Below, piece after piece: positions 13,092 to 41,495 of a stretch of DNA of 41,814 nt. A model generated the notes under the pieces. That model did not search any database. It worked only from the letters and a program-made list of their open reading frames with translations, and had not been told where the DNA came from. The first letter of the stretch is position 1; every line of letters starts with the position of its first letter. The stretch is from a virus: IMG/VR virus record IMGVR_UViG_3300009086_000035, positions 1 to 41,814 of that record; one strand, 5' to 3'. Made by a program: the position numbers and the translations under genes.

Positions 13092-16000
13092 CTATACTGT
13101 AACGCAGTGTCTTGCTACTTTCACCGTTGCTGCGCTTGCAGAAGACATTGTAACTTTAAGTTCTACATTATTTCCGTTGATTGCAGTCTGCAGCGTTCCT
13201 AGTACCCCATTTGTTTCAATTTTTGCAAACTCTGTGGCTGATGCAGTGGTTCCGTTATGAAGAACAAGTACTTCCGACACTTGATAGTTAGTACCTTGAG
13301 TAATCTGTACTGTATACTTTGCACTTCTAAAAGATGCTTTTGCAAAACTATCTACCACAGTTGCAGAAGTTGAAGATACTGCAGTAGTGGCTGTTGTAAC
13401 ATCTAAGTCTCCTACTGATAACGATGAACCTACAGAAGCTACATCATCTGTTTTCTGTATATCTATAGCCTGTATTACCGTTTCTCCAGATCCTTGATGA
13501 TTTGTAACAAGGACAAAGTCAAAGTATTTACCTTCTGGATCAAATTTACTATCATCTCCACCAGTTGTAGGAACATTATAACCTTTAACAGTACCTTCAA
13601 AAGTATAGGTTTGACCAGCAGTAAGAGATACGTTTTCAGCGAGTGCATAGTTATAACTATTAGCATTATCAGTAGCTAAATTTGCAAAATCTTCATCTAA
13701 AGTTTTTACACCTGCATAGAATTTCCCTGAACCACTATCTGTTGATATCTGCTTTACTCGAACTTTGAGTCTGTAAGTTGCTTCGGGATCAATAGGCATT
13801 TTAACATTTACAGTACCAGTTACCGCACTAGTATGGTCTATGCTTAAACCTTTATGAGTGGCACTGTAAGCGACGGTTCCAGCTCCCGTATCCAATAAAT
13901 CACTCCAGTTATTATTGCCTACAGAGAACGATTTAGAAGTATTGGCTTTTGTAATCTTTCTGCCGCCTATATTTAAGGACTTAACATTATATAGATTTTT
14001 AGTATTAAAATTAATGTTTGAGTTGCCTGAACTAATTGATAGCTCATTACCGCCATCATTTGTAATATTTCCTCTGGCACGAATACTACCTGTGAAGTAC
14101 GCACCTTGACTTGAGGAAACAAACAGATAGTTATCTGGAATAATTACTTCACCAGCATCTCTTATTCTCAAAAGATCTGAGCCACTACTATCCTCAACTC
14201 GGAAAGCTATCTTTGCATCATCACTATCTGAAGTCTCACCCTTAACATGAAGTCTTGCACTAGGGCTATCAGTACCTATACCTACACGCCCTGTATCTCC
14301 TTTCACAGTCATACGTCGAGTGTCGTTTGCATAAACTACCACATCTCTGCTACTTCCGTAACCTCGTATATTGAAATCATCATTTTGAGTATCAATCCAA
14401 GCTACGTCTGCACCGTTATTATCTAATAGTATGATTCTGTGATCATCGTTATCAGAAGTATCTTTTAGAGTTAAGTACGGACTGTCTCTATCTATTCTAA
14501 GATTTCTATTGAACAACCACCCTGTGGAAGCGTGTTCATAAGTAAGAGAAGCATCTGCACCATCAACAGTAATCCCCGATCCATTTGCTGCTGCGGAATC
14601 TGCCGCCCCTTTAGCAACAGTAATATTTAAATCATCAACATCAAGAGTAGTAGAGTTAATCGTAGTGCTTGTACCGTCAACTTGCAAGTTACCCGCAATA
14701 ACTAGAGTACCATTATTATTTCCATGATCTCCATTTGCGTCAGCAGGATCAATAGTAAAGTTCTGCGGTCCTTTTAAAGTACCGGTCATAACTATATCTG
14801 ACTGAGTACCTAAGGTTAGACTGTTATATACTCCAGAAACCGCTCCTGAGAAGCTAGTAGAGGTATTCAGGTAGTATGTAGCATTTTGTCCATCTAACTG
14901 AGAGGCATTACCTCCGTCGGCTGTTGCTGTAAATCCTGTACTATCAAACGCTGTAAGAGGAACATTTCCTGCTTGAACCTTTTTCTGATTACCTGCATCT
15001 AATACTACAAATAAATCTGTAGACTCCATATCATCAGTGGTTTCAGTAAGTTCTGTTAAATCAACATTAAATTGTGTCGTACTTAAATCAAGTAGGGCAC
15101 CTGCAGTATATTCAGTATTGTTATCACTCCAGGGAACATTTACATATGCTTTTTCACTATCAAGCTGTACAGGGTAGTTTTTATCTGTTTGAGTATAGCC
15201 AATCTTAATACCACCAAGCGCACCGCTTGTAGCTGCAGGAAGGGTATAATTGTTCGCATTCGTATCTATAGTATCAAGTTTAGTACCATCAGTAGCAATA
15301 TCACGACCATCTACAGTACCAGATACAACAATATTACCAGTTACGCTTACGCCTCCAGAAGTTGTGGCTAATTTTGCTCCGTTATCATAAAGAAGTGTTA
15401 CCGCTCCGTTCTGACTAGCGGTAATCATATCCTCATCCATTGCTACATTTCTCAATGCAAAAACATCTGTAGCTAGAATTAATTTTCCTGTACCATTATC
15501 TTTAATAACACTATTACTTGCGTCATGGTATATTTGTAAATCTTCTGAATTACCGAATGTAGCCTTATAAGTATCTTTAAAGTCAAAGTCCCCATAGATA
15601 GCATTAGCTCGGAAACGATCAGGCCAATAAGATCGATTAGTATTGTAGTTGTATGCCCATAAATGATTAATCCGAACAGCAGTTCCTGCAAAATTAGTAA
15701 GAGTATATCGTACATGACTAGTGTTTGTACCACCCGAACTAAAGTACACATGATGATTCATTAAACCGCTATTTGTTATATTTAATCTTTCAGTGAAGGT
15801 AGATCCATCAGTAGAAGTTTCAATTTTTACATCTTTTGCTCTCCAACTCTCTCCACCGAACTGTATACCTGCATGAGATCCATGAGTAAGACCACAGTCT
15901 GAAATTGTAATTACAACAGTATCTGTATTTGAAGTACTAGTCTGTCCAGAATTAGCACCTGATTGGAAAGGACTTCCTCCTAAGTCTATAGACGTACCGT

Positions 16001-19000
16001 TCTTTGTGGAAGTAACAGTTAAACGTTTGTTTGCACCCGCTATATTATTATATGAAACTCCAGGAATATATACACCATCGGAAACATTTTCCGAGCTAGT
16101 ATCAAGCACAAATCCACCCATTTGAAGCAGTCTATTTGTCGCAATGTGACCTTTAAAAGTTTCCGTACCTAAAGTTAGTTTATTTGAGGCGCTGCTTGCT
16201 CGAGATAGAGTAAGATCTTGGTTATAAGAAGAAAGAGTACCAGAACCAGAAACAACAGTTTTATTAAAGTAGAAGCTACCTCTATCTGTTTGGATATGTG
16301 CCCATGAACTATTTTCAGAGCCTACAGAGACCCAACCAGTAGGAGTAGTAATCTTCAGTTGACCCGTTGCTCCACCCTGAGATAGATCCGTATTTGTGTC
16401 TGTAATATAAACATTTCCACCCGCTACTGTTAAATCACCTGTAGTATTAACATTACCTGTTGATGACACAGTCATAGCTGTACCGTCTACACTATTAGCA
16501 AATTCAAAACCGTAACCAGTTAAACCAGTGGTTGCTTTCCAAGTACCTCCATAGTTACGGAATGCGGAAGTATAACCAGTATATACATTCCCATTTGATG
16601 TAATACCCGCATTATTAAAATAAGCTATTCGAGTACCGTCTACTAATACATTAAGATTGTCATTGTCTCCATTTGCGGTTGCGGATAAGCCTGTATCTGT
16701 TCTTCCTGTAAACGCTATAGAAGGTGCTGATGTTGTCCCTTGAGGGAAGTAAGCATTGCCCGCAAAAGTAGCATTTGCACTTGTATCAATACTTAATTGA
16801 TTTGTACCGTCTTTTTGAATTGCGAACTCATTTGCACCACTGCCATCAAAATCTCTATTCAATCGGAAGTAGTGATCCCCGTTTCCGTCAGAATCTTGTA
16901 TAGCAGTAATCGAGTTTACAGTATCTGTTACATGCAAGTCTAGAGACTGATTCGCTGTGCGTCCTACCATGAAAGTACCGGTGCCTTGCGTTGTAAGTAC
17001 TCGCAAGTCTCTATTCATGTTCCAACTATCATCAGTGTTAGTATAAGTAAAGGTAGCATTTGCACCGTCAACAGTTAAACCTGCTCCATTAGCCGCAGCT
17101 GCATCTGCCGCACCACTTGCTACAGTAATGTTAAGATCATCGACATCAAGAGTGGTAGAGTTGATAGTAGTAGTTGTACCATCAACTTGTAAATTACCTG
17201 CGATAACAACAGTACCAGTATTGTCACCATGAGTAGCAGGATCAATAGTAAAGCTAGCCGGGCCTTTAAGAGTCCCAGTCATTGTAATATCGTTGATATT
17301 TTGTATATTCGGAGTTCCGCTATTTCTATCAAGCCAAGTAACCCAACCATTACCAGCTGAATTCAGAACTTGAATAGCTTTACGATGTTTAATATCACCA
17401 TGTGTTTCTAGGAATCCATCCGCTCTAAGCTGGTATAAATCTCTTGCTGACATGTCACCGGCATTATTTATACGAGTAGTAGCATTAATAATAACATCGC
17501 CATTTGCAATATTAAGACTTCCTTGATTTAGTGTTACTCTGCTATTTGCAATAGACGTATTTGCTACAGGATTAACACTAAATATTGTTGAATCATCTGC
17601 ATTTCTTACTTGTAAACTATTATTATCTTTCGCATCAAAAATGAAGGAATTATCATAATATGAAAATCTTGTAGCATCTCCACCTATTTTACTAAGCTCT
17701 GAGTTAGTGCCTGTTCCTGCATGTTTCAATACTAGAGCTTTTGTATTATTTAATTCTATGTTTGCAGAGTGAGTTTTAACACCTGATACTGTTTGAGCAC
17801 CTGTAGTAGTTAATACTGTACTATCAATAGAAAACTGAGTATTGGTCAAATCTAAACCAGTACCTGCTGTAAAGGTAGTGTCTTGGGTTGTTATAGTAAG
17901 AGTATCATTTGCGTCATCTTCTGTAAGAGTAACATTTGTACCCGCTGTCAGCATTGCTACTGTAACATCACGAATATCTTCATCAGTTCTTTGAGTATTG
18001 TTAAAGCTAGAGTCAATGGTGAGTGTGTCTGCACTATCATCTTCAGTAAGTGTAATATTATTTCCGCCGCTTAACATAGCAACAACTACATCACGAATAT
18101 CTTCATCACTTCGTTGAGTATTTGGAGTACCAGCAATAGTTACAGTATCTGCCGCATCACTTTTAGTTACTGTAATATTGTCCCCCGCCGTAAGCATTGC
18201 AGCAGAAACATCTCTAATTTCTTCATCTGTTCTAAGAGCCGAAGAAATAGTTACAGTATTTGCATCATCGTCTTTAGCTACTGTAACATTTGTACCTGCT
18301 GTAATAATACTAGCTGCAACATCTCTAATCTCTTCATCAGTTCTAGGAGTTACGGTGGTTGCTACAGTAAGAGTGTCTGCACCATCATCTTCTGTGAGGG
18401 TAATACCTGTGCCTGCGGTAAGCATTGAAACAGTAACATCACGAATATCTTCATCACTTCGTTGAGTATTTGGAGTACCAGCAATAGTTACAGTATCTGC
18501 ATTATCATCTTTTGTTACCGTAATATTTGAGCCGCCTGTAATCATTGCTGCAGAAACGTCTCTAATTTCTTCGTCAGTTCTTGCAGTTACACTATTTGTT
18601 ACCGTAAGTGTATCATTTGCATCGTTTTCAGTAAGAGTGATACCTGTACCTGCCGTAAGCATTGCTACCGTAACATCACGAATATCTTCATCCGTTCTTT
18701 GCGTGTTTGGAGTACCTGTAATTGCTAATGTATCATTTGCATCATCATGAGAAACACTAATATTAGTATGAGTAGCTCCTGTAATTAATGCAGCTGCTAC
18801 ATCCCTAATCTCTTCGTCTGTTCTTTGAGTGTTTGGAGTACCTGTAATGGTTACAGTATTTGCAGCATCATCGTTAACTACTGTAATATTGCTCCCTGCG
18901 GTAATCATACCAGCTGCCAGATCGCGAATAGCCTCATTACTTGGTCCATTTATAGTAAGAGTAGTTGCATTAGTTCTTACAACCCCAACATTTGTACCTC

Positions 19001-22000
19001 CTACAAGCTCTACATCATCATTAGTAGCGTTTGAACCTGCTAGTCGTATTTTTGTGGTGCTTTCTGGCACAGTTAAATCGTAGGTAGTGTTAGGCACAGT
19101 AACAGATTCATTGGTTCCATCACCTTTTGTTAGTGTTACTATTGAATTTTCTATACTTAGAGCATTGGAAGTAGCAAGTGCTTGTGCGGAACTAGTTTGA
19201 ACTCTATTTCCAAGTGCATTAGAGGTAGTAGTTGCAAAATTAGCATCATCCCCTAAAGCCGCGGCTAGTTCATTAAGAGTATCTAAAGCTGCTGGAGCGG
19301 AGTCAACTATACCCGAAACCTGAGTATCTACATAAGTTTTTGTAGCAATAGTCGTGGTATCTACAGTAATTGCGGAAGTATTAACATCTTCTCCCTCTGA
19401 ATTAGTCTCCGTGGTAACAGCTAAGTTTAGCCCTGTTGAAATATTTATTGCCTGACTAGCTGCAGACTCTTGTGTTCCATCTTCTTGCATGATGATACCA
19501 GCAATGGCATCAATCTGAGAATCCTCATCAATTAATACACTATTTAAGGATACACCCGAAATAGTTAAATCGGTACCATCCCAAATAATATATTTATTAG
19601 CATCACCAAATACGAACTTACCATAGTTTAGATCAATAAATGCACCGTTCTCAGACCCGGTAGGAGCATTATCTGCATCAGCAATAGGATTACTAACGTT
19701 AGCTTTAAGAGTACCTGCTGTAATGTCTCCAAGATCAGCACTAACCGCCGCTACATTAGTTACATTTATAGCACTAGCATCTACTGAGTTAGCTGATATA
19801 GCATTTGCGGTTACCGCATTTGCAGCAAGAATATTTGCATTCACCGCGTTAGATTCTATCAAAGTAGCATTTACAGCATTTGCTTCAATAAAGTTAGCAT
19901 TAATTAAAGAAGCATTTATCATACCAGAAATTACAGAGTTAGCAGTAATTTGTGCAGAGGTAATAGAGTTCGCCGCTAGTTCATTGGTGGTAATAGCATT
20001 TGCTCCAATATGATCTGACGTAATAGTAGAAGCACTAATTAAGCTAGATACGATAGAGTTAGATGTTATTTTATCTGCAGTAATAGCATTTGCCGCAATG
20101 TGATTAGACTCAATAGTTTGTGCATTAATAAGAGTGGATACTATTGAGTTAGCTGTAATTTTATCAGAGGTAATAGAGTTTGCCGCAATATGATTAGACT
20201 CAATACTCTGTGCATTGATAAGAGTAGAAACGATAGAGTTAGATGTTATTTTATCTGCAGTAATAGCATTTGCAGCCAAAGTATTTGTAGTTACAGACCC
20301 TGCAGCTAAGTGACCTGTTTGAATCTTCTCAGCCGTCATTAGAGTAGATACAATAGAGTTTGCAGTAATATGATCTGCAGTTACATTGTTTGCTGCTATT
20401 TTATTTGTTGTTACAGAGCCTGCTGATAATTCAGTGGACGTAATCGTTTCTGCTAATATAGAATTTGCATTTACAGAGTCTGATGCTAAAGAGTCTGCAT
20501 TTACTGCATCTGTTGCAATTTGATCATTTTGTACAGCATTGTCTGCAATTTGATCATTTTGTACAGCATTGTCTGCAATTTGATCATTTTGTACAGCATT
20601 ATCTGCAATTTGATCATTTTGTACAGAATTGTCACCCAACTGATCATTACCAACAGTATTATCAATAATTATTGAGCCATCTTGATTTTGCTCTACTTTG
20701 TACCAGTTGGTTCCATCGTAAATAAATAAAACTACTGCTGTAGCATTTGTTTCAGTTCCTGTAAAGAAGTAAGCCATATCTTTAGGTATAGCATCACCAG
20801 GTCTATTTGTCCAGCTTGCATCCCAAGCAGCGTCCGCAGTAGCATTATTAGTGGGTAGACTGCTAACAGGTACATAATACTCGCCTGCCCCTCTATTACC
20901 TGTTTGACCGACTTTTGTACCTGTAAATACTTCGGAGTCTGTGTATGTTTCTGTAAACGACGTAAATGTTTCCGTAACTTCACAAGTAATTTTTTCTGGC
21001 AAATCACTTATATTATTCGGAGGAGTATATGTTAAAGTTTGAGAGGTTTCACCGTTAATCGTAGTACCATCTTTTTTCCAGACATAGGCTAAAGTAGAAT
21101 CAGAATGTGCTCTCGACAGCATTGTTGCAGTCAAAGTAGAGGTAGCAGGTGTGCCACTTTCTATTCCAGTACCATCTTTCTCATATGTAAATACTTTTAC
21201 GCTTGCATCTATTCTTGTAAGACCTACTCTAGTCGCTTTAGCAGTTGCTGCAAAACCTTGTGTACCACTATAACCACTTACTGACGCATTAGGCCAGAAG
21301 TTGGAAGGTATTTTTCTATATGCAGAACCTGCTATATTAAAGGCGGGCTGGTCTGTTATATTTCTAAACCAGTAGTAATAAGTAGCATTACTTGCTCCGA
21401 TTCCTGAGTATACAGATTCTTTAAATAAACCATCTTTCTGTGTAGAGACTAAAATAGTATTTGTAGCTTTACCTGAACCAGATCCTGAATCATTACAGAA
21501 AAATACTTCCCCCACTGTATTTAAAGCAGCACCTATTAAGGTAAAATCTGTAGTACCTAATTCCGTAATTCTATACTCATGTCCAGGCACAAAACTACCT
21601 GCAGATACTTCATTGTTTAAACTATTTACATTACTACGCCAAATTTCTGTTACTGTTGTACTCTTAGTTACTCCTGCTTGTTGTGCAAATGCTAAAGTAA
21701 TTTCTCCAGCTCTTTCAGCACCTACTTGAGCTGCTCCTGAAATAGTAGGAGTATCTGGATAGTTTTTATTAGAGCCCGCACTTGGATCTATTCTGTCGTC
21801 AGAACTTGGTTCGGTTATGGTATAGATCTCATCGCTGTGCTCTTCTGCCGTAACTGTTGTCTCTCCATTTACTTTAAACTGTAGAGACGTAATTCTGAAG
21901 TTTTTGGAGTCAAAATTAAACGGAGAGTACGTTATCTCTATAATACTACCTGCTGTTAGCAGTCTACCTTTCGGTCCAATAGTAAATTGAATTTTTAGCC

Positions 22001-25000
22001 CATAACGAGATTTTCTCAACATCTGCTCTACTTGCATACGAGCATTGAAATAGTTTGTTACACCAGGAAGCCTCGAGCTACCTTTTTTGGGTATTCCTTT
22101 ATCTTGTTTTAAGTATGATGAATCAAAGAAAGAAACAGTTCTGCCTTCAAAATTATTATGTGGATCTATAATAGTTGCGGACATGAAGTTTTTACTTTGC
22201 TTCAATCCTCCATCATTAAGACGAATGCCTCCAATAATATCCTCTTCACCAATTTGCTCTAAATTATCTACAGCTGTTTTTCTGCCCGCTATTCTTAGAG
22301 CATATTTACCTGCAGTATAAGTTAATATACCGTTAAACTGCTGTGCCATTTGAATTATATTATCAAACAGAGGCTGAGCAGTGTCTATAACTTGGTTCAT
22401 TTGATGGCGAGTACAGTTTCGTTGCTGTCTATCATTCCATCCAACATATTTCCAATATTTTACTTCCGAGGCATCGTATAGACTATATCCACTATATCTA
22501 AAGTCTAAATTAACAGGGTCGAAATTTTTAATAATGGGGTTACCGTTACCAGAGCTGAAAGTGTGCTCCAATGAGATACTGTTGTTAGATCCTACCTGAC
22601 CAAGAACAGGGCCAGAGGTTGCCATAGTTGGCAAAGTTTCCACCTGGAAATTATATACATCACTGCTTCGTACATAATATTCACCATTGTAGTAGAACAT
22701 ATGATTAGTCGCTTCTCTCCCTTGACCTGCTCTTTGTATCAACTGTCCTATACAATCTTTAAAGGTTACAACCTTATACTCTGTACTAGAGTCGCCCGTT
22801 ACTACAGTATTACTTATACTATCTATTGTCCCTCTCCAGATAAGGGGCTGAGTACTAGAGCTACTATTGGTTCTATTTACTGCAGGGAATTCAAATTTTT
22901 CTCCTGCGGATAAAGCATTTCCTACTGTTTTTGCTACGACGACAGATACTGTTGATCTCTCGTCGCAAAGTTTAGCAGCTGTAAGGAAAGAATCTAGATC
23001 GATTTCGTCTTCCAGAGATAGTCCTTTACCATAGCGCTCGCTCGTCATATAATCTAATAGTTGCAGGGCAGGATTAGTAGAAGGTCTTACATCTACTGCT
23101 TTAGAAATACTAACATTATCACCTGCTTGGGGTAGTTGGTAAGTAGGCACAGGACGATCAAAATATACAATTTTATTTGTACCGTCATACTTTTCTACTT
23201 TTCTTGTAACCGTCCACTGATATCCAGTAGACGCAGTAGTTTGATAACTTACCGTGCTTCCTTTGTAAAAATCATCAGCACCACTTGCACCAGAACTGCT
23301 GATTGCGATTGCATTTGTTACTTCAACATGGTGCCAGGTTGAAAAAGTTTTCAAACGTGTATACTGCTCTTGGAATAAACCCTGAAAAGTAATTTTTGGT
23401 TGGGTATATTGAAGTGAATTCCCTGCCAGCTCAACATGGGTAGTAGAAGTTATGGGAATTAGTGAAGATTCTACAGACACAACTTCTTCTGGTTTATTAT
23501 TTACAGATCTTTTAATAAAGAAACGAAGATCTGCATCATCGCCAGTTATAACTGTTGCATCTAAGGCGGTTGCTTTTCCGTAGTCTCTAGTAGTTGATCC
23601 ACTTCCCATTGTGTTTTCTTTTCTAATATCGAAACGTAGTTCACCCCCACCACTATTATAGCGTTGAGTGCCTCTGTGGTATGTTATTCCATTAGATGTG
23701 TATTCATCTTCGCCCTGTAGACCTATGTTATTATATACTTCTTCACCAGCATAATATAGTGTATGTCTATATTGACCGTTACCAAGAGATCTCTCTTTCC
23801 AATAGTGCTCAACATTAGTACTTGTACTGTATTTCCAACCAAGTACAATACTTGTAGGTCTATAGGTGGAAAAACCTCCTGTAATTATATGCTCATTTTG
23901 ATCTTCTTCTAGCCTACAGCCGAGCTTTTCTCTAACTGTTCCTACAAACTGAGTCTTTTTATTAAGTTCCATGTGGTAGGTATAATATCCGCCGCTTCCA
24001 TCGGATCTTCTAATCTGGAACTGATCAGGGGTTGAGGAACTAATTGGGTTACCCTCAAACTTAAAGCGATACACGTTTGCTTTAAAGTGTGGCTCATACT
24101 CTAAAAACCTCTCTGTGATAACCACATTTTGGTGAAGTACGGAACTACCATTCATAATATCTACTACATCGCCTGGTTCGAAGCGATACGCCTGAGTAGC
24201 AGTATGAGTATAGGTAGTAATAACATTATTATTATCATCTACTCTATTTTTGGACGGGCCATAGCTATCATCATAGTTATGACAGTCTATGAGTTTACCT
24301 TTTACGATGTAATTAAGTCTGGGTACTTGTGACTCACCTAATGGAAGTTTGAACTTTAATGCTGCATACGCCGTATCTAAAAGTCTGTGGTGACCTCCCC
24401 AGTAATCCCACTTAGTTCCGTCAAAATAGTGATTTCCTATTTTATAACCGTTTTCAGTACCTTGTATAAGTAGTTCACTTGCCGTTTGATTTGGTTTTCC
24501 TAATTGAAATTGACCATCTAATTCGGTGCCTTCCCTCCAGTGTATATATTCACTATGTTGTACGCCTGTTGCTGATGACGAAGCTTCCACACCATTTGTT
24601 GCGCCTGACTGATTAGGAAATCCTGTAGGTACTTGAATATCTTTATATACGTTTCGGTAACTTTTACCAACCCTTTTTACACCGGCCTTAATGGTTACGG
24701 TTTCCATCTCGTCGCCTATAGTTTTTTCAAGAACATCTCCTCGTGCCTTGTTACCGTTACAGCTTATTTCTACCGCATCAGCATCATATCCAGTACCTGA
24801 TGTATTCCTAATATCAAAATCAATTTTATCAATACATATAGTCGGAGTTTCGTCTAGTAAAATATCTAAAACACCTGCGATCTCTCCTTCACAAAAAACC
24901 TCTGCCTTATATACTAAAGCGGAAGTGCTGTCGTCTGTATCTACAAATACAGGGATAGGTTTTATTTTTCTTACACCATAAACAACCGGTATGTGTTTTG

Positions 25001-26084
25001 CTTGAGTATGAAAATCAAGTACACTGGTCTGTTCTCTAATAGTTTCTACTTCTCGTAGTCTTTTACCTCCGAACCAGCCTCCATTTATATCGACTTGTTT
25101 ATAAGATTTTTCAATAGTATCATATTTAACAGCAATATTAAAAGCAGAGTTGGCGTGTAAAAACCCTAAATCTTCTGAATAATCATCTCTAGTAATAACT
25201 GTAGTATCACTTAGCCCACCGGCTGTCAAACCTCGATGAGATGCATCATCCGTTAAGCGACCCGATACTTGTAGGAAGTCTCCCCAATGACTAGTAAGAG
25301 TCCACGTAATTTTTGAGTTTGAAACATTTTCATCTACAGAACCATTAGTTACAATACCTTTAAAAAGTATATAAGGTTCTCCAATTATTTGTCTTGTTTC
25401 AGGATTGATATGAGCACTGTATATTGTAACATCTCTGTTCAAGTAGTTTACATATCCAGCAAGTTTAGAGGTTAGTAAAGAGGTTAAGTGTTCCGAGGAC
25501 ATAGTAACATTACTAAATACTTTACTAGAGCCTGCTGTTCCTAGTATTGAGGCAGAATCTGCCTCAAAAGATATTTGTAACCCATTATCAGATATTGCAG
25601 TAATTCTTATATCTACTGTTTTAGTAGTGCTTTCTGTATATGTTAAACTTATAATATCATTTACAGAAAAACCAGATTCTGCCCAACTATCTCCTGGGGA
25701 AGTTATTGTAACTGTTCCGGTTGTATTGCCTGAGTTATAAGCAACGGTTGTTTTTAAACTTTGAAAGTGCACTCCAAGATATGCGCCATCTAATGTTATT
25801 TTCATAGTGGAGGCTTTTGCTTTTATAGCCTCATTAGTATTACCTACAGACAAAAGACTGTTTGGTAGGTAAGTTACACTATCGTACTCTAATTCATAAG
25901 GATTATCTGTTATATACACATAATCGTTTACACTTCTTTCCCTTCTTTCAAAGTTTTCATTTGATAGAGTATTTGCTCTTTCAAATTTAATTAAATGAGC
26001 ATACGCATACGCATCTCCATTTGTAAGAGAGCTTACTAAGGCCGTTTGTTTGGTATTGTCGCTGGATAATTTTCTAATTGTCAT
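13092..26084 (-). CDS. Giant tail hub/central fibre protein (4330 aa)
   Basis: A 13-kb single open frame. Residues 1-340 resemble gpL/DUF2163-type tail-tip domains. About 360-1410 resembles the lambda gpJ-type hub: HIPVVYGVRKI near 363, LLDYMTSERYGKGLSLEDEI near 1010, and VEQMLRKSRYGLKIQF near 1350. Then comes an FN3-like region (about 1440-1570) interrupted by a small inserted domain, an Ig-like region, a decapeptide repeat (1807-1856), an ITADKI/NSIVSTLINAQ-type repeat shaft (to about 2120), nine RTDEEIRD repeats (about 2380-2735), two copies of a GNLQVDG module (from 2931 and 3762), and a beta-rich end. It follows the tape measure and a distal-tail-like protein, as gpJ does. The start overlaps the preceding stop (TAATG). 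It probably forms a trimeric hub that opens the tail and extends into a central fibre. Confidence 0.88.
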   Translation of the reverse strand: MTIRKLSSDNTKQTALVSSLTNGDAYAYAHLIKFERANTLSNENFERRERSVNDYVYITDNPYELEYDSVTYLPNSLLSVGNTNEAIKAKASTMKITLDGAYLGVHFQSLKTTVAYNSGNTTGTVTITSPGDSWAESGFSVNDIISLTYTESTTKTVDIRITAISDNGLQISFEADSASILGTAGSSKVFSNVTMSSEHLTSLLTSKLAGYVNYLNRDVTIYSAHINPETRQIIGEPYILFKGIVTNGSVDENVSNSKITWTLTSHWGDFLQVSGRLTDDASHRGLTAGGLSDTTVITRDDYSEDLGFLHANSAFNIAVKYDTIEKSYKQVDINGGWFGGKRLREVETIREQTSVLDFHTQAKHIPVVYGVRKIKPIPVFVDTDDSTSALVYKAEVFCEGEIAGVLDILLDETPTICIDKIDFDIRNTSGTGYDADAVEISCNGNKARGDVLEKTIGDEMETVTIKAGVKRVGKSYRNVYKDIQVPTGFPNQSGATNGVEASSSATGVQHSEYIHWREGTELDGQFQLGKPNQTASELLIQGTENGYKIGNHYFDGTKWDYWGGHHRLLDTAYAALKFKLPLGESQVPRLNYIVKGKLIDCHNYDDSYGPSKNRVDDNNNVITTYTHTATQAYRFEPGDVVDIMNGSSVLHQNVVITERFLEYEPHFKANVYRFKFEGNPISSSTPDQFQIRRSDGSGGYYTYHMELNKKTQFVGTVREKLGCRLEEDQNEHIITGGFSTYRPTSIVLGWKYSTSTNVEHYWKERSLGNGQYRHTLYYAGEEVYNNIGLQGEDEYTSNGITYHRGTQRYNSGGGELRFDIRKENTMGSGSTTRDYGKATALDATVITGDDADLRFFIKRSVNNKPEEVVSVESSLIPITSTTHVELAGNSLQYTQPKITFQGLFQEQYTRLKTFSTWHHVEVTNAIAISSSGASGADDFYKGSTVSYQTTASTGYQWTVTRKVEKYDGTNKIVYFDRPVPTYQLPQAGDNVSISKAVDVRPSTNPALQLLDYMTSERYGKGLSLEDEIDLDSFLTAAKLCDERSTVSVVVAKTVGNALSAGEKFEFPAVNRTNSSSSTQPLIWRGTIDSISNTVVTGDSSTEYKVVTFKDCIGQLIQRAGQGREATNHMFYYNGEYYVRSSDVYNFQVETLPTMATSGPVLGQVGSNNSISLEHTFSSGNGNPIIKNFDPVNLDFRYSGYSLYDASEVKYWKYVGWNDRQQRNCTRHQMNQVIDTAQPLFDNIIQMAQQFNGILTYTAGKYALRIAGRKTAVDNLEQIGEEDIIGGIRLNDGGLKQSKNFMSATIIDPHNNFEGRTVSFFDSSYLKQDKGIPKKGSSRLPGVTNYFNARMQVEQMLRKSRYGLKIQFTIGPKGRLLTAGSIIEITYSPFNFDSKNFRITSLQFKVNGETTVTAEEHSDEIYTITEPSSDDRIDPSAGSNKNYPDTPTISGAAQVGAERAGEITLAFAQQAGVTKSTTVTEIWRSNVNSLNNEVSAGSFVPGHEYRITELGTTDFTLIGAALNTVGEVFFCNDSGSGSGKATNTILVSTQKDGLFKESVYSGIGASNATYYYWFRNITDQPAFNIAGSAYRKIPSNFWPNASVSGYSGTQGFAATAKATRVGLTRIDASVKVFTYEKDGTGIESGTPATSTLTATMLSRAHSDSTLAYVWKKDGTTINGETSQTLTYTPPNNISDLPEKITCEVTETFTSFTETYTDSEVFTGTKVGQTGNRGAGEYYVPVSSLPTNNATADAAWDASWTNRPGDAIPKDMAYFFTGTETNATAVVLFIYDGTNWYKVEQNQDGSIIIDNTVGNDQLGDNSVQNDQIADNAVQNDQIADNAVQNDQIADNAVQNDQIATDAVNADSLASDSVNANSILAETITSTELSAGSVTTNKIAANNVTADHITANSIVSTLMTAEKIQTGHLAAGSVTTNTLAANAITADKITSNSIVSTLINAQSIESNHIAANSITSDKITANSIVSTLINAQTIESNHIAANAITADKITSNSIVSSLISASTITSDHIGANAITTNELAANSITSAQITANSVISGMINASLINANFIEANAVNATLIESNAVNANILAANAVTANAISANSVDASAINVTNVAAVSADLGDITAGTLKANVSNPIADADNAPTGSENGAFIDLNYGKFVFGDANKYIIWDGTDLTISGVSLNSVLIDEDSQIDAIAGIIMQEDGTQESAASQAINISTGLNLAVTTETNSEGEDVNTSAITVDTTTIATKTYVDTQVSGIVDSAPAALDTLNELAAALGDDANFATTTSNALGNRVQTSSAQALATSNALSIENSIVTLTKGDGTNESVTVPNTTYDLTVPESTTKIRLAGSNATNDDVELVGGTNVGVVRTNATTLTINGPSNEAIRDLAAGMITAGSNITVVNDDAANTVTITGTPNTQRTDEEIRDVAAALITGATHTNISVSHDDANDTLAITGTPNTQRTDEDIRDVTVAMLTAGTGITLTENDANDTLTVTNSVTARTDEEIRDVSAAMITGGSNITVTKDDNADTVTIAGTPNTQRSDEDIRDVTVSMLTAGTGITLTEDDGADTLTVATTVTPRTDEEIRDVAASIITAGTNVTVAKDDDANTVTISSALRTDEEIRDVSAAMLTAGDNITVTKSDAADTVTIAGTPNTQRSDEDIRDVVVAMLSGGNNITLTEDDSADTLTIDSSFNNTQRTDEDIRDVTVAMLTAGTNVTLTEDDANDTLTITTQDTTFTAGTGLDLTNTQFSIDSTVLTTTGAQTVSGVKTHSANIELNNTKALVLKHAGTGTNSELSKIGGDATRFSYYDNSFIFDAKDNNSLQVRNADDSTIFSVNPVANTSIANSRVTLNQGSLNIANGDVIINATTRINNAGDMSARDLYQLRADGFLETHGDIKHRKAIQVLNSAGNGWVTWLDRNSGTPNIQNINDITMTGTLKGPASFTIDPATHGDNTGTVVIAGNLQVDGTTTTINSTTLDVDDLNITVASGAADAAAANGAGLTVDGANATFTYTNTDDSWNMNRDLRVLTTQGTGTFMVGRTANQSLDLHVTDTVNSITAIQDSDGNGDHYFRLNRDFDGSGANEFAIQKDGTNQLSIDTSANATFAGNAYFPQGTTSAPSIAFTGRTDTGLSATANGDNDNLNVLVDGTRIAYFNNAGITSNGNVYTGYTSAFRNYGGTWKATTGLTGYGFEFANSVDGTAMTVSSTGNVNTTGDLTVAGGNVYITDTNTDLSQGGATGQLKITTPTGWVSVGSENSSWAHIQTDRGSFYFNKTVVSGSGTLSSYNQDLTLSRASSASNKLTLGTETFKGHIATNRLLQMGGFVLDTSSENVSDGVYIPGVSYNNIAGANKRLTVTSTKNGTSIDLGGSPFQSGANSGQTSTSNTDTVVITISDCGLTHGSHAGIQFGGESWRAKDVKIETSTDGSTFTERLNITNSGLMNHHVYFSSGGTNTSHVRYTLTNFAGTAVRINHLWAYNYNTNRSYWPDRFRANAIYGDFDFKDTYKATFGNSEDLQIYHDASNSVIKDNGTGKLILATDVFALRNVAMDEDMITASQNGAVTLLYDNGAKLATTSGGVSVTGNIVVSGTVDGRDIATDGTKLDTIDTNANNYTLPAATSGALGGIKIGYTQTDKNYPVQLDSEKAYVNVPWSDNNTEYTAGALLDLSTTQFNVDLTELTETTDDMESTDLFVVLDAGNQKKVQAGNVPLTAFDSTGFTATADGGNASQLDGQNATYYLNTSTSFSGAVSGVYNSLTLGTQSDIVMTGTLKGPQNFTIDPADANGDHGNNNGTLVIAGNLQVDGTSTTINSTTLDVDDLNITVAKGAADSAAANGSGITVDGADASLTYEHASTGWLFNRNLRIDRDSPYLTLKDTSDNDDHRIILLDNNGADVAWIDTQNDDFNIRGYGSSRDVVVYANDTRRMTVKGDTGRVGIGTDSPSARLHVKGETSDSDDAKIAFRVEDSSGSDLLRIRDAGEVIIPDNYLFVSSSQGAYFTGSIRARGNITNDGGNELSISSGNSNINFNTKNLYNVKSLNIGGRKITKANTSKSFSVGNNNWSDLLDTGAGTVAYSATHKGLSIDHTSAVTGTVNVKMPIDPEATYRLKVRVKQISTDSGSGKFYAGVKTLDEDFANLATDNANSYNYALAENVSLTAGQTYTFEGTVKGYNVPTTGGDDSKFDPEGKYFDFVLVTNHQGSGETVIQAIDIQKTDDVASVGSSLSVGDLDVTTATTAVSSTSATVVDSFAKASFRSAKYTVQITQGTNYQVSEVLVLHNGTTASATEFAKIETNGVLGTLQTAINGNNVELKVTMSSASAATVKVARHCVTV
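14518..14799 (-). repeat. GNLQVDG fibre module, second copy
   Basis: About 94 residues running from a MTGTLKGP motif, through FTIDPA, GTLVIAGNLQVDG and NSTTLDVDDLNITVAKGAAD, to GITVDGADASLTYEH. It is a close paralogue of the module at 17020-17292 in the same gene and of a type common in marine phage fibres. This copy has a short DANGDHGNN insertion. Confidence 0.8.
17020..17292 (-). repeat. GNLQVDG fibre module, first copy
   Basis: The N-terminal-side copy of the module in the 4330-aa protein. It has MTGTLKGPASFTIDPA, then VVIAGNLQVDGTTTTINS, then DDLNITVASGAADAAAANG. It is separated from the second copy by about 740 residues of unrelated fibre sequence. Confidence 0.8.
17885..18950 (-). repeat. 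Nine tandem ~40-residue RTDEEIRD repeats
   Basis: Nine units of 111-125 bp inside the 4330-aa gene, each of the form RTDE(E/D)IRDV, then AMLTAG-x-NITVT, then DDANDTLTI. The unit nearest the N-terminus (GPSNEAIRDL) is degenerate. Units fall into two subtypes: one with EEIRDVSAAM and TVTKDD, the other with EDIRDVTVAM and TLTEDD. Such repeats are known from shafts of phage fibres. Confidence 0.9.
19720..20510 (-). repeat. ITADKI / NSIVSTLINAQ shaft repeats
   Basis: A long run of 10- and 15-residue repeats in the 4330-aa protein, built from ANAITADKI, SNSIVSTLINAQ and ESNHIAAN-type segments and then ANAVNA-type segments. The hydrophobic spacing (Ile/Val/Leu every few residues between Asn, Ser, Thr and Ala) suggests a beta-helical or trimeric fibre shaft. 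Some units are almost identical at DNA level, for example near 20045-20095 and 20225-20275. Confidence 0.85.
20515..20664 (-). repeat. 30-bp tandem repeat encoding a VQNDQIADNA decapeptide
   Basis: Five units of exactly 30 bp. The first two units (20515-20544 and 20545-20574) are identical, the third and fourth differ by only a few bases and the last is diverged. Each encodes one decapeptide of the fibre shaft. The DNA identity points to recent expansion by slippage or recombination. Confidence 0.92.
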
Positions 26085-32762: not shown

Positions 32763-33689
32763 TTATTTATTGTATGTGATAGTTGTAGATAGCGCCTGAT
32801 TGCTAGTATTTCTCCACTCATAATTTTGTAAAAATACATCGCTAACTGCTGATCGATTTGTAAATGAGCTGGTCGGCATATCAATATCTACTCCATGAAA
32901 AGATCCATTTATAACTTCTCCTACTCTTATTCGGAGAGAAATGGACTCGTTAAACTGATATAATTGCTGATTGTTGGTATCGCACAAATATCGTGTAATG
33001 TTTCCTGCCAAAGACTTTTTACTAACAGTAAATTTTTTAGGGAAGATTGCTGTAGAAGCACCGATAACATTTATGGCATCATCTATTGTTGCATTTTCTG
33101 TCCATCTTATACTGTTTTGTAATTCTGCCTTTATAGCAACTATCTCAGTTGAGATATCCAAATTATTACCACCTAACTGTACCAATACCTGCTCATTCAT
33201 CAATATCTTTCTATTAGAATTGACGCTTGCACTAGACCCAGGGATAAGTGCATCAGATGTGATGGTACTTGTTACCCTGGAGAGCTTTGAGGCGGTTCCA
33301 GAAACTGTTAAGCTCAGGGGTTTGGATCGCTCAATCCCGTACGTCCCATTTGCAATAACACAATCTTTCAGATAAAACCTATCAAGCTCAGTTGATATAT
33401 ACAAATCAAATACTCCACAGCTAATTAATTTATCATGTACTATTGCTGTTGTATTATATGAAGTATTATCTTCGTAAAAAAATACCGAAAATTTAAAGTT
33501 TGCAGGATTAGCTTTTTTGATTGTTGATCTATCAAAAAAATCATTCTGTGCATGCAACGTTTTAACAGCTTTCGGCTTATCTGTAAATGTTTGACTAAAT
33601 GACAGATCAGGCCCAACCTCCAACTTATATTTGGTGCCGCTTACTACCAAATATACTTTGGCTTCCTGTTTAATGTTATAATTAGCCAT
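32763..33689 (-). CDS. Second tail-tube-like protein
   Basis: A 308-residue protein whose start (IKQEAKVYLVVSGTKYKLEV, then DLSFSQTF) follows the same pattern as the tail tube protein encoded just upstream (EVEVYVKYDTDYWKVPV, then GFSFSQST). The rest is beta-rich: an SLTVSGTASKLSRV segment, a central helical IVAIKAELQNSIRW segment, and a C-terminal barrel with SISLRIRVGEV. GGAG precedes ATG 33689. It may be a minor tube or tail-tip ring subunit, or a specialised paralogue of the tube protein. The paralogy is seen as pattern, not proven by alignment. Confidence 0.6.
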   Translation of the reverse strand: MANYNIKQEAKVYLVVSGTKYKLEVGPDLSFSQTFTDKPKAVKTLHAQNDFFDRSTIKKANPANFKFSVFFYEDNTSYNTTAIVHDKLISCGVFDLYISTELDRFYLKDCVIANGTYGIERSKPLSLTVSGTASKLSRVTSTITSDALIPGSSASVNSNRKILMNEQVLVQLGGNNLDISTEIVAIKAELQNSIRWTENATIDDAINVIGASTAIFPKKFTVSKKSLAGNITRYLCDTNNQQLYQFNESISLRIRVGEVINGSFHGVDIDMPTSSFTNRSAVSDVFLQNYEWRNTSNQALSTTITYNK

Positions 33690-33704
33690 AAATCTCCAGA
33701 TAAT

Positions 33705-33732
33705 AAAAAAGGGGTCTGAAAAAGACCCCTTT
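33705..33732 (-). terminator. Intrinsic terminator between the two tail-tube-like genes
   Basis: Inverted repeat AAAGGGGTC (33732-33724 on the - strand) - 7 nt loop - GACCCCTTT, with T6 and more T following in the - strand direction. It lies 15 nt upstream of the next start and about 15 nt after the predicted start of transcription from promoter P3. Confidence 0.9.
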
Positions 33733-33752
33733 CTTAACTTTTTCTATCTCAT

Positions 33753-33792
33753 ATTATAGTGCAAAGGACCATAAATGTCAAGAAATATTTTT
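33753..33792 (-). promoter_or_regulatory. Consensus late promoter P3, upstream of a terminator
   Basis: On the - strand: AAAAATA (33792-33786), 4 nt, TTGACA (33781-33776), 17 nt, TATAAT (33758-33753). Transcription would start near 33746 and meet the terminator at 33732-33705 within about 40 nt. It follows directly after the stop of the tail tube gene. Confidence 0.92.
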
Positions 33793-33799
33793 CAGTATG

Positions 33800-34936
33800 T
33801 TATGCACCTACATATAGAACTTCTAACTCGTCAGTAGCGCCGATATCTGTTGGTAGTGCGTGGAAGTTAACTTCAACACCTACAACATCTTCAACATTAT
33901 GAGAAGGAACTTCTAAGTGACATTGGTTCATATCAAACTCTACTCGTGGAGTAGATGATGCCCCGCCTACTTGGAATAGTAGAGCAAATTTATTCTTAAC
34001 TGCACCTTGCGAACCAAGTAGATCTTCAATAAGATCAGCACTTGAGGCTGTGTTATGATCTAAGTAACAAGTAAAGCTACCTGATACAGTACGACCTCCA
34101 AGAGTGTGTCCTAAAGGCTTATTAACTTGACCTAAGCTGGCAGGAGTTACATATTCTACGTTATTAGTAATAGTAATGCTTCCACCTGTAAGTACTAGAT
34201 TATAAGATGCTGCAATATCTCCGCCCATCGCTGAAGCTACAGTAAGCTGGGTCAAACGGTTACGAATAAAGCTACCGGTATTTTGAATCTCAGCATCAGT
34301 GACTTCCATTGTTGCACTACCGATAGCAGTAACAGTACTGCCTGCGGCTTCACTTAATGATTTTGCAGAACCTGACCAGTTAAGAGTAGTAATACCATCA
34401 ATATCAAACTCAGCAGCACACTCATTAACAGTAGCATCACCAAGCTCATACCAAATATCGGTATTACCGCCATCAGCAGCATCATTACCCGGGAATTTAA
34501 ACCAGATTGTAGCTGAAGGAGCAGTTAGTACGTTTGATTTGTTAAACTTAACTTTAGCACCGGCATCACCTTGCTCGATAGAATCGGCTTGGGTAAATTT
34601 GTTACTAGTACTATTATAAGCAGTATGAGGTGTTTGGTTAAGCATAGCCCACATAACTTCTTCAATCATGTGATGCTCGTCAGTCTCACTAACAACTCTT
34701 TTGAAAGGTCTAGCATAAGTAGAGAAACTCCACTCTGCAGGAGCCATAGAATCGTTAAACATTAAACGACCACGACGGCTAGCATTACTACCGTTTGCCA
34801 TCTCTTTAACAGCTACCTCTGCTGTATTTGTTGATTGCGAGAAGCTGAAGCCGTCAAGTACAGGAACTTTCCAATAATCCGTATCGTACTTAACATAGAC
34901 CTCTACCTCGCGACTTAAATGTAAAGAATTTGCCAT
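33800..34936 (-). CDS. Major tail tube protein
   Basis: A 378-residue protein starting MANSLHLSREVEVYVKYD. The N-terminal part (to about 110) and C-terminal part (GGRTVSGSFTCYLD, LLFQVGGASSTPRVEFDMNQ, then VEVNFHALP) have the beta-barrel signatures of tail tube proteins. A central Ser/Thr/Ala-rich segment may be an inserted Ig-like domain. AGGAG lies 7 nt before ATG 34936. Position between the tail terminator and the chaperones fits. A strong terminator follows, fitting high expression. It builds the hexameric rings of the tail tube. Confidence 0.8.
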   Translation of the reverse strand: MANSLHLSREVEVYVKYDTDYWKVPVLDGFSFSQSTNTAEVAVKEMANGSNASRRGRLMFNDSMAPAEWSFSTYARPFKRVVSETDEHHMIEEVMWAMLNQTPHTAYNSTSNKFTQADSIEQGDAGAKVKFNKSNVLTAPSATIWFKFPGNDAADGGNTDIWYELGDATVNECAAEFDIDGITTLNWSGSAKSLSEAAGSTVTAIGSATMEVTDAEIQNTGSFIRNRLTQLTVASAMGGDIAASYNLVLTGGSITITNNVEYVTPASLGQVNKPLGHTLGGRTVSGSFTCYLDHNTASSADLIEDLLGSQGAVKNKFALLFQVGGASSTPRVEFDMNQCHLEVPSHNVEDVVGVEVNFHALPTDIGATDELEVLYVGA

Positions 34937-37473: not shown

Positions 37474-37507
37474 AAAAACTTGGGGGAGGCGAACCTCCCC
37501 GAAGTTT
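37474..37507 (-). terminator. Strong intrinsic terminator after the capsid gene
   Basis: The hairpin arms GGGGAGG / CCTCCCC (37500-37494 and 37489-37483) close over a TTCG loop on the - strand, a very stable tetraloop. The stem is extended by AAACTT/AAGTTT across one mismatch, and a T tract follows in the - strand direction. It sits 17 nt after the capsid stop codon. Confidence 0.95.
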
Positions 37508-41455: not shown

Positions 41456-41495
41456 ATTATATCTAGTTTAAGCTAACTTGTCAATAACTATTTTT
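41456..41495 (-). promoter_or_regulatory. Consensus late promoter P4 for the head genes
   Basis: On the - strand: AAAAATA (41495-41489), 4 nt, TTGACA (41484-41479), 17 nt, TATAAT (41461-41456). Transcription would start near 41449, giving a leader of about 27 nt before the HNH gene. The promoter begins right after the terL stop. Confidence 0.93.

Follow-up and report, generated by a model that had tools for sequence, protein, structure and literature searches.

A promoter reading into a terminator behind the major tail protein gene of a distant T5 relative: a probable leaky attenuator cassette

Between the two tail-tube genes of a phage distantly related to T5, a perfect sigma-70 promoter, P3, reads directly into an intrinsic terminator. 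From comparison of the sequence with its relatives, the most likely function of this pair, to which we give a probability of about 0.6, is that of a leaky cassette of promoter and attenuator behind the major tail protein gene. Most of the tail-tube mRNA arriving from upstream would end at the hairpin, and P3 would start a fresh RNA for the baseplate tube, chaperone, tape measure and distal tail genes; this RNA would meet the same terminator, and only part of it would get through. The transcribed leader motif GAAAAAG would pair with CUUUUUC in the hairpin before the closing arm GACCCC emerges, and the resulting short-lived leader hairpin would compete with the terminator and keep termination partial. 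The net result would be an abundance of tail-tube protein and a scarcity of assembly proteins. A T5-like phage has to produce tail-tube subunits in much larger numbers than tape-measure or baseplate proteins; to our knowledge, the tuning of late genes in these phages is little understood.

The window, that is, the whole stretch of 41,814 nucleotides analysed here, comprises positions 1 to 41,814 of IMG/VR virus record IMGVR_UViG_3300009086_000035, and the features of the cassette are collected in Table 1. Judged by its genes, the window comes from the virion-gene region of a distant T5 relative: the virion genes lie on the minus strand, their order (portal, head protein, adaptors, tail terminator, major tail protein, baseplate tube, chaperones) matches the family models, and the major tail protein is about 30% identical to its Demerecviridae counterparts. 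The original prediction placed the promoter and terminator between two tail-tube-like genes, and profile matches on both sides, to PHROG 3575 and PHROG 3889, agree with this. Past the downstream gene lie tail assembly chaperones and a probable tape measure gene, as judged from PHROG 3889, 313 and 3914 and from the gene order of relatives. The 110-nt intergenic stretch is identical in three other, independent contigs and has homologues in dozens more, which rules out an assembly artefact. Further along the minus strand, one open reading frame of 4330 residues (13092-26084) lies between a distal tail gene and a gene for a protein of 2439 aa.

Table 1. Features of the promoter-terminator cassette and its flanking genes, in window coordinates
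Feature	Position	Strand	Basis or remark
Upstream gene, major tail protein (tail tube)	33800..34936	-	PHROG 3575, E 1e-48
A-rich upstream element AAAAATATTTC ahead of the -35 box	33782..33793	-	AAAAATA-n-TTC pattern
-35 box TTGACA	33776..33781	-	Perfect consensus
Spacer, 17 nt	33759..33775	-	GGT(C) conserved near -24 to -21
-10 box TATAAT	33753..33758	-	Perfect consensus
Leader GAAAAAG at the predicted RNA 5' end	33738..33744	-	7-bp match to 33724-33718 (CUUUUUC)
Terminator hairpin GGGGUCU-UUUUC-AGACCCC	33711..33729	-	Sequence, folding; contains CUUUUUC 33724-33718
T6 tract, predicted 3' end	33705..33710	-	Sequence
Ribosome-binding site CTGGAGA of the baseplate tail tube gene	33695..33701	-	Sequence; many relatives have [C/T]GGAGA
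Downstream gene, baseplate tail tube protein, ATG 33689	32763..33689	-	PHROG 3889

P3 (minus strand, 33781-33753) agrees with the sigma-70 consensus at 12/12 positions of its two boxes, and transcription is predicted to start at 33747-33744, in line with the start near 33746 that had been proposed. Perfect promoters are very rare by chance, with 0.013 expected per simulated window versus four observed (41484, 33781, 13075 and 5648), all on the minus, coding strand. The AAAAATA-n-TTC pattern stands ahead of TTGAC in nearly all relatives' cassettes and in the window's other perfect promoters. Two of these other promoters have features of their own. At 5648-5620 (minus strand), an inverted repeat with an operator-like look, CTTGACATTGTATGTCAAG, is made up of the -35 box and the spacer; at 13075-13008 (minus strand), the leader that runs from the promoter to the 2439-aa gene contains a strong hairpin, CCGCCCCCGCAATGGGGGC, which has no T tract and is more like a 5' stabiliser.

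The terminator hairpin begins about 17 nt past the likely P3 start. With its GC-rich stem, short loop and T tract, the site at 33729-33705 has every element of an intrinsic terminator and is one of only two strong terminators that a strict rule finds in the window; its RNA folds with -19.6 kcal/mol versus -11.1 +/- 2.6 for shuffled sequences. The parts, their strand and their order, a promoter running into a T6 terminator before the next gene, are therefore as originally described, and the predicted P3 run-off ending at the T tract is about 42 nt long. Relief of an attenuator by translation, which had also been suggested, is unlikely because there is no space for an open leader frame between the start at 33746 and the hairpin at 33729. 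A search of the cassette against Rfam 15 gave best matches far below the gathering scores and assigned no family, so that a known RNA family at a curated score is ruled out. Elsewhere in the window, a hairpin GGGGAGG-UUCG-CCUCCCC with a T5 tract lies 3' of the capsid gene without a promoter (37500-37470, minus strand), and a strong terminator for both strands (1517-1494) lies between the converging virion genes and plus-strand genes.

To compare the arrangement with that of relatives, we searched with a profile of the major tail protein, which gave 80 loci of 39-61% identity, and sorted them into promoter-then-terminator (PT), terminator-then-promoter (TP) and hairpin alone (T-only). The raw locus counts were 51 PT, 20 TP, eight hairpin only, two with none and one promoter only. 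The single 'promoter only' locus arose from a wrongly placed start codon. Of the two 'none' loci, one has its cassette one gene further, behind an apparent second copy of the tail-protein gene; in L270 the cassette stands behind the gene that follows the tail-protein match and that looks like such a second copy. After dereplication and correction by hand, with the classes of L247 and L270 set manually, 67 rows remained: 44 PT, 16 TP, six T-only and one undetermined. The cassette is also present in three contigs that are recorded as bacterial or archaeal (one PT, two TP). The PT cassette, found in 44 of the 67 relatives, always follows the major tail protein gene and precedes the chaperone/tape-measure block, which lies behind the cassette site in every case, with or without an intervening baseplate-tube gene. 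This comparison had been named as a check, and the order of promoter and terminator proved to be conserved across a large group of marine T5-like phages, which argues that it is no accident. Promoter and hairpin also go together when promoters are collected by a pattern without any hairpin requirement, since 50 of 53 distinct promoters have a hairpin directly downstream and two of the remaining three are cut by contig ends. A chance origin of the cassette is ruled out by this pairing, the low expected promoter number and the conservation of the cassette. The named T5-like phages My1, D239, JSF12, AG74 and T5 were considered as further carriers and rejected, their gap at this place being -1 to 14 nt, and a DNA search of phage records gave none that matches the entire cassette.

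The reverse order, a terminator ahead of the promoter, had been called the simple arrangement, and it is precisely what occupies the same site in 16 of the 67 relatives. In a tree built from the major tail protein, the TP label changes at least five times and the PT-with-leader label at least six times on well-supported branches, and the sister pairs L215/L218 and L237/L275 differ in class. The order has been switched repeatedly. If PT and TP are interchangeable, the PT promoter must supply RNA to the downstream genes, and its terminator would have to be passed at least partly.

The strength of the U-tracts is graded in the same sense. The score falls from 4.55 in TP cassettes to 3.67 or 3.87 in PT cassettes, depending on which of two ways is used to set the start of the tail, and to 1.48 in hairpin-only cassettes; each step has p of about 1e-4 when rows are treated as independent, related though the phages are. 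TP terminators, which no transcription needs to cross, have the strongest U-tracts, and hairpin-only terminators, which all downstream transcription must cross, have the weakest. U-tract strength therefore drops as the need for read-through rises, in agreement with partial passage of the PT terminator. Together with the exchange of order, these weaker U-tracts make leaky termination that lowers the downstream tail and chaperone genes the best fit of the three options originally offered. The T6 tract of the window is strong, so that termination may be nearly complete in the window itself.

A further feature of the PT cassettes is a match between the transcribed leader and the hairpin. Besides the GAAAAAG/CUUUUUC pair of the window, a second allele combines the leader GAAAAUC with GAUUUUC or near forms, and the complementarity is kept. 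Including L224, whose leader is AGGAAAAAG, 35 PT rows bear a leader, and about nine PT relatives are without a matching one. Over 39 distinct pairs, leaders fold with their cognate arm at a mean of -3.56 kcal/mol versus -2.37 with the arm of the other allele, and only 1 of 2000 permutations was equally good, related sequences being treated as independent. When the leaders alone were shuffled, the mean was -1.90 versus -3.40 for the real ones, a comparison in which shuffled A-rich leaders of the CUUUUUC allele often come nearly equal to the real ones. Folding of the growing window RNA gives a leader-loop hairpin of -4.4 kcal/mol at 30-34 nt, which the terminator replaces at 36 nt; the transient hairpin is weak compared with the terminator (-11 to -19). 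RNA polymerase holds 12-14 nt of RNA inside, and at the switch it would therefore stand about on the T tract, which makes it plausible that the leader-loop hairpin acts as a competing antiterminator.

Could the terminator instead be overcome by a dedicated factor, as at lambda pR'-tR'? P3 would then be always on and blocked at the terminator until a phage protein bound the spacer, loaded onto RNA polymerase and turned the tail genes on late. The order of the parts is the same as in pR'-tR', and the spacer class co-occurs with the hairpin. The PT spacer is conserved, with GGT at -24 to -22 and AC at -14 and -13 by position counts over 60 promoters, a set partly chosen with a GGT-containing pattern but matched by an unselected intergenic set. 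In the phage 21 Q binding element two C:G pairs are important (PMC6606751), and most relatives have C at the corresponding positions, -21 and -13, which is a lead. The window, however, has CAC at -15 to -13 rather than the GAC of most relatives. Nor is there a clear -10-like pause element; the early transcribed TAGAAA, compared by eye with TATAAT, is alike at 4/6 positions and misses the final T. Searches for a Q gene in the relatives' long contigs gave no match to PF06530 or PF03589 (at most 12 long fragment contigs, with both positive controls detected), whereas a PF06323 search of long contigs, in which the positive control was silent too, carries no information. Moreover, other orthologous promoters in these phages carry conserved spacers of their own. 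The promoter at 41484 (minus strand), before the HNH-like and portal genes, has the spacer AGTCACCCTAAAGCCGA and near forms, unlike that of the cassette, and spacers of this type occur at L281, L287, L288, L293, L301, L306, L323, L343 and L344. As this orthologous HNH/portal promoter is also conserved in its spacer, spacer conservation alone proves no regulator site. We thus regard factor-controlled antitermination as unlikely. A dedicated antitermination switch in the wider sense, for the tail-assembly genes of marine T5-like phages and operated either by a new spacer-reading factor or by leader-loop pairing, is possible though doubtful; if it existed, it would decide whether a polymerase started at P3 enters the tape-measure operon.

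The pattern of conservation raises another alternative, namely that the cassette serves mainly as a site of gene exchange and is kept alike by recombination, in the manner of the promoter early stem-loops (PeSLs), in which promoter and terminator form one composite motif and which are described in T4-like phages (cited in PMC4503421 and PMC3950731). Among PT relatives, the cassette is 78% identical versus 63% for the end of the upstream gene and 62% for the start of the next one. Between the window and L004, identity peaks in the cassette (97% at the upstream gene end, 100% in the cassette, 66-71% over most of the next gene), and in several pairs cassettes of 92-94% identity stand between flanks of 55-65%. 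Cassette order and the downstream gene are, in addition, mosaic on the tree. Taken by itself, this conservation fits selection as well as shuffling. The matched allele differences of leader and loop, however, are not explained by recombination alone, and one copy per genome at a fixed place is unlike PeSL-rich regions. Exchange as the main role is, in our judgement, quite improbable, and it would be compatible with an attenuator role in any case.

The original prediction also offered a short RNA of about 40 nt. If the terminated RNA of about 42 nt were itself the product, it might be a small regulatory RNA acting in trans, and IsrK of prophage Gifsy-1 offers a precedent in which one promoter yields two functional products, a short RNA ending at the terminator and an mRNA made by read-through (PMC4825925). 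The strong promoter, the complete hairpin and the T6 tract of the window would suit such an RNA, as would the conserved 5' leader. The leader is nevertheless very short, the cassette finds no Rfam match at the gathering score, and PT cassettes swap with TP cassettes, which would yield no such RNA. Because several homologous cassettes (among them L209, L266 and L268) have U-tracts that are too poor to release the RNA efficiently, it is very unlikely that a small RNA is the main product. Least probable of all is that the hairpin merely stabilises the 5' end of the downstream mRNA and terminates upstream transcription, with high read-through and no regulation: it does lie near the RNA 5' end, many relatives have weak U-tracts and the leader of the 13075 promoter also has a hairpin without a T tract, but the matched leader/loop alleles and the graded U-tracts would be left unexplained.

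The leaky promoter-attenuator cassette is thus the reading we prefer. Its natural variant series, with two orders, graded terminators and a matched leader, lets the logic of a promoter and terminator placed together be tested directly.

We also asked whether promoter-then-terminator matches across viral contigs share this design, and mostly they do not, the window hairpin being transcribed whole. The viral contigs (L007-L072) hold 42 distinct cases of a perfect promoter followed by CCCCTTTTTT. The 5' arm of the hairpin starts 0-3 nt past the -10 box in 35 of them, and in 27 an ATG comes within a few bases after the T tract. Here the promoter's own RNA should miss most of the 5' arm and escape, and only transcripts arriving from upstream would be stopped by the terminator. 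This design, with the hairpin touching the -10 box, is present in many marine phage contigs and is possibly PeSL-like.

Several known systems resemble parts of the cassette. Lambda pR'-tR' likewise has a promoter directly before a terminator ahead of late genes, and a conserved spacer; it differs in that here no Q family was found in the searches above, no clear pause element is present and no regulator gene is adjacent. IsrK is a longer regulatory RNA that controls an antirepressor, as opposed to the few leader bases that precede structural genes in the window. In T7, the terminator T-phi after gene 10 is leaky, and genes 11 and 12 depend entirely on read-through (PMC5592923), so that there too a leaky terminator after the gene of an abundant virion protein holds later genes low. 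In T5, a terminator is annotated behind the major head gene, and its counterpart in the window lies at 37500. Neither T-phi nor the T5 head-gene terminator has a close promoter reading into it, and T7 uses its own polymerase. Like the PeSLs, the window cassette has a sigma-70-type promoter directly before a stem-loop terminator and lies intergenically between modules; it may also be associated with shuffling, although selection could equally make a cassette more alike than both its flanks. PeSLs are early promoters present in many copies per genome of T4-like myoviruses. The window cassette lies among virion genes of T5-like siphoviruses, at a fixed site after the major tail gene and as a single copy, with no further copy in the window, the relatives' loci or the other promoters of long contigs; moreover, its transcribed leader matches the loop, and relatives show the reversed order. 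On our reading, cassettes of the promoter-stem-loop kind, described in T4-like phages, would be present in a further large group of phages as well. PeSL cassettes, leaky terminators behind virion genes as in T7 and a promoter, terminator and read-through that yield two RNAs as in IsrK are already known; what seems to be new is that the cassette keeps to a single fixed site, that its order can be exchanged and goes with a graded strength of the terminator, and that its leader matches the loop.
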